From contig NZ_SOBR01000003.1 of assembly GCF_004364315.1 (NCBI RefSeq), positions 310,001-374,000 of the forward strand: a stretch of DNA of 64,000 nt, written 5' to 3'. Below, piece after piece: positions 55,167-58,883 of the stretch (positions within the stretch are counted from its first letter, which is position 1; every line of letters starts with the position of its first letter). The position numbers and the translations under genes were made by a program. The stretch is from Chromohalobacter marismortui. Its GTDB lineage: Bacteria; Pseudomonadota; Gammaproteobacteria; Pseudomonadales; Halomonadaceae. Under the pieces are notes generated by a model, which saw only the letters and a program-made list of their open reading frames with translations, was not told where the DNA came from and made no database searches.

Positions 55167-57902
55167 TCAGCTCAATTTGCCGTGGCAATGCTTGTATTTC
55201 TTGCCTGAGCCACAAGGGCACGGATCGTTGCGCCCCACTTTGGGGCCTTCGCGACGTACCGGCTGACCGTCGTCTCCCTCCGCGGGTGCTTCTTCGCCTT
55301 CGGCCACTGACTCGGCCGAGGCCACGGCATCATCGTGGACCGGCTGACTGACCGCTCGCTCGCGCTCCAGTGTGGCGCGCCGCTCATGCTCGAGCTCATC
55401 GACTTCTTCCTGGCGCCGAACCTGCACATGACTCAGGATGCGAACGACATCGTGCTTGATGTTGCCCAATAGCGCCTGGAAGAGCTCGAAGGCTTCACGC
55501 TTGTATTCCTGCTTGGGATTCTTCTGTGCGTATCCACGTAGATGGATACCGCGACGCAGGTGGTCCATGTGTTGCAGGTGTTCCTTCCAGCGCGTGTCGA
55601 GCACCTGCAGCATGACCTGCTTTTCGAAACGCCGCATCAGCTCCGGACCGACCGCTTCCGTCTTGCTGGCGAAGAGTCCCCGGTGCTGATCGTGCAGGCG
55701 TTCACGCAGCAATTCTTCATGGAAGTGTTCGTCCTCTTCCGCCCATTGCACGACCGGCACATCGAGGTTGAACTCTTGCTTGAGGTAATCCTGTAGCCCC
55801 GGCAGGTCCCATTGCTCGGCCAAGCTCTGTGGCGGCACGTAACTGCTGATGGCCTCGGACAAGACCTGCTCGCGGATCTCCGCGATATTCGAGGAGAGAT
55901 CATCGGTGGCGAGCACCTCATCGCGCTGCTGATAGACGACGCGCCGCTGATCGTTGGAGACATCGTCGTATTCCAGCAACTGCTTGCGGATATCGAAGTT
56001 GCGACCTTCCACCTTTTTCTGGGCACGCTCGACGGCGTTGGAAACCATCTTGTGTTCGATCGCCTCACCGTGTTCCAGCCCCAAGGCGCTCATCAGCCGC
56101 TGCACGCGGTCGGAGCCGAACAAGCGCATGAGATTGTCTTCCAGCGAAAGGAAGAAACGCGTCGAGCCGGGATCGCCCTGACGGCCGGAACGCCCACGCA
56201 ACTGATTGTCGATGCGCCGTGATTCGTGGCGCTCGGAACCGATCACATGAAGCCCGCCCGCGGCGAGCACGGCATCGTGACGTTCCTGCCATGCCGCCTT
56301 GAGTTCCGCGACTTGCTCGTCGGTGGGATTATCGAGGGCTGCCGCTTCGGCCTCCCAGTTCCCGCCCAGCACGATATCGGTACCGCGCCCGGCCATGTTG
56401 GTGGCGATGGTCACGGCCCCCGGACGCCCGGCCTGGGAGATGATCTCGGCCTCACTCTGGTGCTGCTTGGCATTGAGCACGTTGTGCGGTATCTGATAGT
56501 GCTGCATCAGCTTGGCGAGATACTCGGAGGTTTCGATCGATGCCGTCCCCACCAGCACGGGCCGGCCGGCCTCGCGTTGCGTCTTGACGTCGTCGATGAT
56601 GGCTTCGAATTTTTCCTCGCCGCTCATGTAGACCAAGTCATTATGGTCCACACGCACCAACGGGCGGTTGGTGGGAATCACCATGACGTCCAGCCCATAG
56701 ATCTGACGGAACTCGAAGGCCTCGGTGTCGGCGGTCCCTGTCATCCCCGCCAATTTCTCGTAGAGACGGAAGTAGTTCTGGAACGTGGTGGAAGCCAGCG
56801 TCTGGCTCTCTTTCTGTATCGTGACCCCTTCCTTGGCCTCGACGGCCTGATGCAACCCTTCCGACCAACGACGCCCCGGCATGCTGCGTCCGGTATGCTC
56901 GTCGACGATCACCACTTCGCCATCGTTGACGATGTAATCGACATCGCGGTGGTAGAGGTGGCGCGCGCGTAATGCCGAATGCACGTGTTGCAAGAGCCCC
57001 AGGTTCTGGGCCGAGTACAGCGAGTCGTCCTGCCCCAGCATGTCAGCGTCACGCAGCAAGCCTTCCAGCTTCTGGTGACCGGCTTCCGTGAGCTCCACCT
57101 GTTTTTGCTTCTCATCGAGGGTGAAGTCCCCGCTGGTGGGATCCTCTTCGTCGCTGCACTCCTCGAGCCCCTGAGAAAGCTGATTGATACGCCGATAGAG
57201 CTCGACGTTCTCTTCGACCGGGCCGGAAATGATCAACGGCGTACGCGCTTCGTCGATGAGAATCGAGTCGACCTCATCGATGATCGCGTAATGCAAGGCA
57301 CGCTGGACTTTGTCATCCAGCGAAAACGCCATGTTGTCGCGCAGATAGTCGAAGCCGAATTCGTTGTTGGTACCGTAGGTAATATCGCATGCATAGGCTT
57401 CGCGCTTCTCGGACGATGGCTGGCCGGAGAAGATCGTCCCTACGCTCAGGTCGAGAAACTCATAGAGAGGGCGCATCCATTCGGCATCGCGACTCGCCAA
57501 GTAGTCGTTGACCGTCACCACGTGCACGCCCTTGCCGGTCAAGGCATTGAGGTAGACCGCCAGGGTGCCGACCAGGGTCTTGCCCTCGCCGGTCTTCATC
57601 TCGGCGATGCGCCCTTCGTGCAGCGTCATCCCGCCGACCATCTGCACGTCGAAGTGGCGCATTCCCATCACGCGCTTACTCGCCTCGCGCACTACGGCAA
57701 AGGCATCGGGAAGGAGTTTGTCGAGGGATTCGCCCGCCTCCAGGCGCTGGCGAAATTCGCCGGTCTTGGCCGTCAGCGCAGCATCGTCGAGGGCTTCGAA
57801 CGTCGGCTCCAGCGCGTTGATGGCCTCGGTGGCCTTGCGCATGCGTTTGACTTCGCGGTCGTTCTTCGAGCCGACCAGCTTGCGTACGATCGTATTGAGC
57901 AT
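55167..57902 (-). CDS. secA: preprotein translocase ATPase SecA
   Basis: A 911-residue motor of Sec export. Walker A MKTGEGKT at about residues 103-110, Walker B region [11 protein letters not shown], the helicase blocks [17 protein letters not shown] and [18 protein letters not shown], and the C-terminal zinc tail [14 protein letters not shown]. The start has AGGAA 6 bases upstream. A 125-codon frame with a signal peptide and RGPP motif ends 73 bases upstream on the same strand, with a predicted RNA helix adjoining the secA ribosome-binding site; see the separate entries. Confidence 0.98.
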
Positions 57903-57917
57903 GTGAGTTCCTGAGTT

Positions 57918-58020
57918 CCAAAAGTGCCGAAAACGTCATGACGATCACCGCTCTGACGCGGTGTCGATGTCGATATCAGGCGATTTTCCGCCCAACATCA
58001 GAAAACCAGGCACTCTTTGG
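57918..58020 (-). promoter_or_regulatory. long-range RNA helix beside the secA ribosome-binding site
   Basis: On the minus strand, CCAAAGAGTGCC (58020-58009, codons for P112-A115 of the upstream frame) is complementary to GGCACTTTTGG (57928-57918), 11 pairs with one bulged base. The second arm ends 5 bases before the AGGAA of secA. A further CCT/AGG pairing could include that site. A ribosome halted at the upstream RGPP would cover the first arm and free the secA site. The pairing is seen; the function is inference. Confidence 0.5.
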
Positions 58021-58353
58021 AGGGCCGCGACGCGAGACGGCATCCAATCCGACGCTCAAGACATGACAACAACGCTGCGGCAAGCGCCACAGGCGCGATG
58101 ATGACGGCCGACGTCGGGCACTCGCCAATAGCCGCGTGCGTCGTGCCACTCGACGCGACTGGGCGCGGATGGCTTCCGGCGCCATCAGGCAGATCTGCGT
58201 CAAGCGCTCGGCGATGCGCAACGCATCGGCGCTCACCAACCCCGCCGGCAATAAACACCCTACCAACAGGCCGGCAAGCCAGCATTGCGCACGGTGACGT
58301 GCGCGAACACGGCGACGTGGCCACGTTGAGCTGTGGTGCGTGGTGCTGCTCAT
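57976..58353 (-). CDS. candidate SecM-type secretion monitor with an RGPP arrest motif
   Basis: A 125-codon frame directly upstream of secA, same strand, where E. coli has secM. The product looks secreted: basic n-region (PRRRVRARHRAQ, residues 12-23), hydrophobic core (WLAGLLVGCLLPAGLV, 25-40) and likely cleavage after VSA at residue 42. The rest is Arg-rich and ends RRGPPKSAWFSDVGRKIA. RGPP (109-112) resembles the RAPP/RAGP motifs of ApdA, ApdP and SecM arrest peptides, and as in those it lies close to the C-terminus. The codons for the two prolines overlap an RNA helix with the secA leader. The ATG has GGAG 12 bases upstream, weaker than usual. Codon use is not strongly biased, as in other monitors. 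Without comparison to relatives the coding status is not certain. Confidence 0.5.
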   Translation of the reverse strand: MSSTTHHSSTWPRRRVRARHRAQCWLAGLLVGCLLPAGLVSADALRIAERLTQICLMAPEAIRAQSRRVARRTRLLASARRRPSSSRLWRLPQRCCHVLSVGLDAVSRRGPPKSAWFSDVGRKIA

Positions 58354-58421
58354 GCTATCGACGAGCTCCGGCTCATGGTAGATTGCGCAGACATTCTGCT
58401 TTCCTTCGCGCGGGCAAGCCC

Positions 58422-58883
58422 ATGAGTATAAAGGCTAAGCGTTTCCGAGCCCAGTCCATGCATCACCTTATCGACGGTTCCGGAGAACTGGGATCGGTGG
58501 TACGCATGGCCAAACTGCTGGAACACGCCCAACAGCACCTGCGTGCCGAGCTTCCCACCGAAGTCGCCGAACACGTCTATGTCGGCGGCTATCGAGACGG
58601 CGCCTTGACCCTGATTACCGATGGGGCCGTCTGGCTGACGTGGCTTCGTTACGAGCGACAGCGATTGCTGATGTTGCTGCGCCAGCTGCCCGAGTTCAAC
58701 GCCGTGCTCTCGCTCAACTTCAAGGTTCGCCCCGTGCGTCCACTCAAGGCCCCGGTTCATCAGGCGCGCACGCTGTCCCCGGACGCCGCGCACCATCTCA
58801 TGGTATGCGCCGACGATACCACGGATCCGAAGCTGAAAAAGGCATTGGCGCGCCTGGCGTCGCATGCCCCCGGGGATGCCTAG
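58422..58883 (+). CDS. dciA: DUF721 protein, DciA-like
   Basis: A 153-residue DUF721 protein. It contains LPTEVAEHVYVGGYRDGALTLI and TWLRYERQRLLMLL..., the conserved nucleic-acid-binding region of the family. DciA is thought to load or assist the replicative helicase DnaB in bacteria lacking DnaC/DnaI. ATG 58422 is chosen by family start. A GC-rich open frame upstream of it (58017-58421) is most likely the antisense shadow of the secM-like frame. DUF721 genes are often near secA and lpxC; here it lies on the opposite strand between them. Confidence 0.88.
   Translation: MSIKAKRFRAQSMHHLIDGSGELGSVVRMAKLLEHAQQHLRAELPTEVAEHVYVGGYRDGALTLITDGAVWLTWLRYERQRLLMLLRQLPEFNAVLSLNFKVRPVRPLKAPVHQARTLSPDAAHHLMVCADDTTDPKLKKALARLASHAPGDA

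Follow-up and report, generated by a model that had tools for sequence, protein, structure and literature searches.

How is secA controlled in Chromohalobacter marismortui, and what does the small open reading frame in front of it do? The question arises in a 64,000-nt stretch of contig NZ_SOBR01000003.1 (hereafter the window), for which it had been predicted that a 125-codon frame immediately upstream of secA, with a signal-peptide-like N-terminus and an RGPP motif 13 residues before its stop, encodes a SecM-type arrest peptide. The sequence agrees with this description: the candidate frame (uORF; Table 1) starts with ATG, encodes 125 aa, does not overlap secA, and ends 73 nt ahead of the secA ATG (57902), with RGPP at residues 109–112 followed by 13 residues and the stop. 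The answer that we favor, with a probability of roughly 0.83, is that the uORF protein is a Sec monitor of the RQH class, in which a stall at RGPP would free the secA ribosome-binding site and release from the stall would depend on export.

The order of genes read along the minus strand is lpxC, dciA (encoded on the opposite strand), the uORF and secA, where lpxC, dciA and secA were identified by their Pfam matches and the genes ahead of lpxC are presumably ftsQ-ftsA-ftsZ. dciA diverges from the uORF across a gap of 68 bp (58354–58421; the dciA start was taken to be the ATG at 58422), and this gap contains a conserved CTANCATG-like box. A scan of 57880–58480 found no sigma-70-type promoter; the same region contains four terminator-like sites (mean of 0.5 in shuffles), two of which (58075–58092 and 58259–58278, minus strand) lie inside the uORF on its own strand. 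Because of the missing sigma-70-type site and the terminator-like sites, co-transcription of the uORF and secA is not established, which we counted against the main model. Searches of Pfam and NCBIfam gave no match for the window protein at E ≤ 1, and searches of the same type with 24 uORF members gave one-member matches only (best E 0.0082 and 0.029). With no family match and no PDB match, a known domain or solved structure for the uORF protein was rejected.

Table 1. Coordinates (positions in the window) of the features discussed in the text
Feature	Position	Strand	Evidence or remark
uORF, candidate secretion monitor for secA (putative RQH-type arrest peptide)	57976..58353	-	frame, relatives, R[GA]PP conservation, dN/dS
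Signal-peptide hydrophobic core LAGLLVGCLLPAGLV, residues 26–40	58234..58278	-	24 aligned members all share L30, C33, L34 and P36
Arrest motif codons R109 G110 P111 P112	58018..58029	-	motif conservation
Helix A, 5' strand, RGPP codons opposite the Shine-Dalgarno region of secA	58022..58028	-	genus consensus fold
Originally predicted helix joined with genus-consensus helix B, 5' strand	58008..58020	-	within the expected stalled-ribosome footprint
Originally predicted helix joined with helix B, 3' strand	57918..57929	-	just upstream of the secA Shine-Dalgarno
Helix A, 3' strand, overlapping the secA Shine-Dalgarno AGGA (57909–57912)	57905..57911	-	genus consensus fold
secA, putative regulated gene	55167..57902	-	Pfam SecA domains

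Of 58 relatives searched with the protein sequence, 32 matched at E ≤ 0.01, among them 31 of the 37 Halomonadaceae genomes in the set; the sole match outside the family was weak and carried an internal stop. The DNA upstream of secA was taken from 120 Halomonadaceae genomes, including the 30 loci of this first search (SecA itself is present in 121 out of 121 sampled genomes of the family), and R[GA]PP was found in 105 of them (97 RGPP and 8 RAPP), in secA orientation and 66–237 nt ahead of the secA ATG. A general lack of conservation of the frame and its motif in relatives, which the original prediction had named as grounds for giving it up, was thus not seen. The motif occurs in 20 out of 24 genera, all sampled genomes of these 20 genera being positive, and the 15 genomes that do not have it make up four genera: g2 (seven genomes), g4 (six), g22 and g24 (one each). 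Two further matches to the motif pattern were left uncounted, one about 680 nt upstream of secA (L039) and one on the opposite strand (L041). Among named loci, 80/80 carry the motif (79 RGPP and 1 RAPP); these represent 80 of 185 relatives, overlap with the 120-genome set, and come from Chromohalobacter, Salinicola, Litchfieldella, Modicisalibacter, Halomonas, Onishia, Billgrantia, Vreelandella and one gammaproteobacterium record, with Chromohalobacter providing the nearest relatives within these 80. RAPP takes the place of RGPP in L029, L122–L126, L159 and L160, so that one arrest core has been exchanged for another in nature.

For eight congeners (the window species is not one of the eight), dN/dS of the uORF ranges from 0.06 to 0.24 in 28 pairs. 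Judged from these comparisons, the uORF is a real protein-coding gene under purifying selection. We had also considered that the frame is spurious and its motif a product of chance, as could be thought from the many long open shadow frames in the uORF region; this is set against the low dN/dS values, the presence of the motif in most of the 120 genomes and the four signal-core residues that do not vary, and we attach practically no weight to it, a chance frame being refuted by conservation.

For the genera without the peptide, frames are listed for 4 out of 15 genomes. In three of them (L031, L038 and L045) a larger gene lies directly upstream of secA, and its product reads like an M23-type peptidase; the fourth (L044) has neither an R[GA]PP peptide nor an M23-type-like gene in this place. 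Given the M23-like gene ahead of secA in peptide-less genera, the peptide may have replaced such a gene at the base of the core family.

The uORF protein starts with a basic n-region (net charge +6), followed by the hydrophobic core LAGLLVGCLLPAGLV, and its KD15 hydropathy reaches a maximum of 2.30 at residue 26; we judged the signal peptide from hydropathy together with conservation. M1, L30, C33, L34, P36, R109, P111 and P112 are invariant in the 24 aligned members, and G110 is almost invariant. The invariant Cys (codon 33, 58255–58257) is found inside the signal core LVGCLLP in 24/24 members, in a context that we take to resemble a lipobox, though hydrophobic residues come next. The usual context of the motif is D-V-L-(S/T)-R-R-G-P-P (D-A-V-S-R-R-G-P-P in the window species), and the residue preceding the motif is R in 84 out of 105 genomes, P in 12, Q in 7 and C in 2. 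The spacing from CLLP of the signal core to the Arg of the motif is 75–82 residues in 30 out of 30 loci, and likewise in all 78 measured of the 80 named loci, and the tail that follows PP has 1–14 residues in 104 of the 105 genomes. Between signal and motif, the middle of the protein is Arg-rich in the window species and variable across members. A second conserved segment (about 58144–58218, residues 46–70; consensus RxxERxxQICLxAPxxIRAxSRR) comes after the signal peptide. The spacer of E. coli SecM is said to contain a regulatory element that acts in export-coupled release (PMC10987492), and this segment may serve such release likewise.

Peptides of this kind are known. In a screen of more than 30,000 genomes, the RQH family of RAPP-like arrest peptides was named (Fujiwara et al. 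2024, PMC10987492), and one of its groups, uA_RQH_Pseudomonadales, is located upstream of secA, with a representative that carries R109GPP and arrests translation in both the E. coli and the B. subtilis PURE systems (fAP >0.9). In the toeprints of RQH members the P site is occupied by the third residue of the motif, and downstream control was tested for another group, uDF_RQH_Enterobacterales (PMC10987492). RGPP was reported as the most robust arrest core in several contexts (PMC12992588). The peptide half of the original prediction, a signal sequence plus a RAPP-like arrest motif ahead of secA, is strongly supported: it is conserved, and motif and residue number are both those of a published group that was tested experimentally.

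RQH members are described as small proteins (<300 aa) that lack a functional annotation and whose genes immediately precede a sec gene in the same orientation, with an N-terminal secretion signal or TM segment and a conserved C-terminal RAPP-like motif separated by a spacer of more than 30 residues. The uORF protein is such a small protein in such a position, its hydropathy and conserved core indicate a secretion signal, its motif is conserved in the 120-genome set and in the overlapping named loci at the frequencies given above, and its spacer is 75–82 residues long. With high probability the uORF protein belongs to the RQH arrest peptides, and very probably it stalls its own ribosome to report failing secretion. 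The kind of system is already known: this is a conserved halophile example of a recently described class, not a new type of switch. It agrees with the idea, already in print, of a repeated origin of RAPP-like arrest peptides ahead of sec genes, and it places a putative secA secretion monitor in 20 out of 24 sampled genera of a halophile family used in biotechnology.

In the order, SecA is present in 155/155 sampled genomes (149 of them outside Halomonadaceae). The secA upstream DNA of 70 non-family genomes from 42 families (one locus having only 215 nt) was scanned for the R[GA]PP pattern only. The pattern matches 7 out of 70 loci; by coordinates, four of the matches (L071, L085, L104 and L183) are opposite to the secA strand, and the frames of the other three (L093, L096 and L103) include no signal-peptide frame with a terminal R[GA]PP. 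A profile search of the 155 genomes found 10 with a match at E ≤ 0.01, six of them Halomonadaceae; the matches in the four others (G143, G168, G220 and G228) are weak (best E 1.7e-4), and strong matches are confined to the family.

The order names in PMC10987492 follow GTDB release 202, GTDB moved most Oceanospirillales into Pseudomonadales (PMC7498684), and LPSN puts Halomonadaceae in Oceanospirillales (PMC10690426). Since no R[GA]PP uORF was found in the 70 non-family loci and the order was reshuffled in this way, we infer that uA_RQH_Pseudomonadales is likely the Halomonadaceae uORF family. The two have in common a uORF of secA, an N-terminal localization signal, a C-terminal RGPP, R109GPP and, as far as can be told, the same GTDB order; they differ in that the published parts show arrest, whereas the genus distribution and the RNA analysis come from the present study. 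The numbering R109 is also found in other members (L012, L013, L021 and nine named loci), so the residue number alone cannot identify the species of the published representative. A literature search with the group name plus Halomonas matched PMC10987492 alone, and broader ones included no Halomonadaceae secA arrest peptide among the matches listed.

Like E. coli SecM, the uORF product is a (here predicted) exported peptide with a C-terminal arrest motif, encoded between lpxC and secA, and in the SecM mechanism as given in PMC10987492 the RNA masks the secA Shine-Dalgarno. SecM, however, has FxxxxWIxxxxGIRAGP where the Halomonadaceae uORF has RGPP, and in E. coli secM comes directly after lpxC, whereas in the window the opposite-strand dciA lies between lpxC and the uORF. 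A comparison of the uORF with E. coli SecM gave a probability of 0.1 and an E-value of 0.66 by hhalign, and BLASTP gave no hit at E ≤ 100. Homology to SecM was rejected, there being no sequence similarity and the SecM motif being absent. The label 'SecM-type' thus holds as a way of working but not as a statement of descent, and the remark in the original prediction that nothing beyond the motif resembles SecM is borne out by both programs. ApdA and ApdP, which we compared by core motif only, share the RAPP-like core (eight Halomonadaceae members carry RAPP itself) but lie upstream of secDF, not secA; their hosts are Actinobacteriota and Alphaproteobacteria (PMC10987492).

We propose the following mechanism. 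A Sec-exported monitor peptide would be made from the uORF, and RGPP at the peptidyl-transferase centre would stall the ribosome while P111 occupies the P site. The stalled ribosome would cover the RGPP codons and, presumably, about 10 following bases. Left uncovered, this stretch would pair with the ribosome-binding site of secA; with this masking strand covered, secA would be translated. When Sec is active, it would pull the signal peptide, the stall would presumably be released, the RNA would refold, and secA expression would be expected to fall.

When pairing under the footprint of the stalled ribosome is forbidden, the secA site becomes easier to open, by a mean of 1.63 kcal/mol across the 105 genomes compared with 0.10 for the mean control block. 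The effect is larger than that of the mean control block in 81/105 genomes and, by genus means, in 14/20 genera; the six genera in which it is not are g5, g7, g8, g9, g18 and g21. It reaches 2 kcal/mol in 36/105 genomes only, and if the best control block is taken in each genome, the mean is 1.49 kcal/mol, near the value for the footprint, which we counted against the main model. In a synonymous-codon control (run without fixed random seeds), 15 of the 20 genera are more masked than expected (Wilcoxon p 6e-4). A duplex test over the 20 genera gave -15.45 kcal/mol for native, -13.15 for shuffled and -13.24 for swapped partners: native pairs are better than shuffles in 13 genera (p 0.011, Wilcoxon) and no better than chance in 7, and better than genus swaps in 16 (p 0.018), where these genus-level p values, as well as that of the codon control, are optimistic because genera are not independent. 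At the level of single genomes, 37 out of 105 reach ≤0.05 against shuffles and 26 out of 105 against swaps. When a single genome stands for each genus, none of 1000 permutations of genus-swapped partners reaches the cognate value; an earlier test on a narrower stretch was weaker (9/300 permuted means at or below native; mean genus rank 0.43). At the level of the family, these comparisons support a cognate pairing between the arrest-codon region and the secA ribosome-binding site, and unmasking of the site would be the best explanation of secA control at this level. Whether, beyond that, the arrest-motif codons double as the masking RNA strand for the secA Shine-Dalgarno, so that the RGPP-stalled ribosome would sit exactly on the RNA lock, with peptide and RNA having co-evolved and the pairing register being mobile, is for us evenly balanced. 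The more than 100 sequences form a natural series in which peptide and RNA constraints on the same codons are separable.

Within the genus, pairing of the arrest-codon region with the site beats shuffles in the other nine members (fractions 0.000–0.022). The consensus fold has two helices: helix A pairs GAGGUCC (part of the Arg-Gly-Pro codons) with GGAUCUC over the secA Shine-Dalgarno, and helix B pairs AGUGUCU with AGGCACU just upstream of it. In the genus alignment 96.4% of 140 cells of the two helices pair, with no two-sided compensatory changes; the high pairing therefore reflects conservation, not covariation. Of what the original prediction proposed to look for in the secA upstream region of Halomonadaceae, conservation of the signal peptide and RGPP was found, but two-sided compensatory changes were not, within the genus.

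In the window species itself, CCAAAGAGTGCC (58009–58020) is complementary to GGCACTTTTGG (57918–57928), ending 5 bases ahead of AGGA. This is the helix drawn in the original prediction; it forms in both the MFE and the centroid folds (duplex -17.7 kcal/mol), but by three measures the pairing does not rise beyond chance: the duplex energy is equalled by a fraction of 0.118 when sites are shuffled and of 0.144 when arms are shuffled, a fraction of 0.575 of the synonymous variants masks the site to the same degree, and the stretch folds with z = -0.78. In helix A, which is intact in 9 out of 10 genus members, 3 of the 7 pairs are broken. With the stalled footprint blocked, the secA site of the window species opens more easily by 1.23 kcal/mol (control blocks: mean -0.49, best 0.35). 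The predicted freeing of the secA site by a stalled ribosome, the weaker half of the original prediction, is thus supported at the family level and by this opening in the window, although the pairing itself is at chance level there. From these folds, the RNA element of the window species looks weaker or placed in another register.

What remains to be weighed is whether secA is reached through this RNA at all. The peptide could arrest and monitor Sec and affect secA otherwise, through mRNA stability, transcription termination or membrane retention of the mRNA. The terminator-like sites within the uORF would suit such a route, as would the weak RNA pairing in several genera and the window species while the arrest motif is kept in 105/105 frame-bearing genomes; on the other hand, cognate pairing exceeded shuffled partners in 1000/1000 permutations with one representative per genus, and codon choice favors masking of the site in 15/20 genera. 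We regard such a route as unlikely, though it is the strongest of the alternatives. Alternatively, the uORF could encode a normal exported protein that serves some other function and in which RGPP is structural and causes a brief proline pause at most; this would account for purifying selection on the whole uORF and for conservation of the second segment after the signal peptide (QICLxAPxxIRAxSRR). Such a protein would hardly keep its motif and its place before secA while its middle and its tail (1–14 residues in 104/105) vary, and RGPP is strongly under-represented, that is avoided, in bacterial proteomes (PMC12992588); we consider this very improbable, only less so than a chance frame.

One locus has an unusual arrangement. 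In L147 (230–799; G096, genus g12), the uORF has no stop after RGPP and is continuous in frame with secA, and the SecA of this genome could, from its reading frame, bear the arrest peptide as an N-terminal extension. The secA open frame of L147 is also given as 919 aa, which conflicts with the continuous uORF-secA frame.
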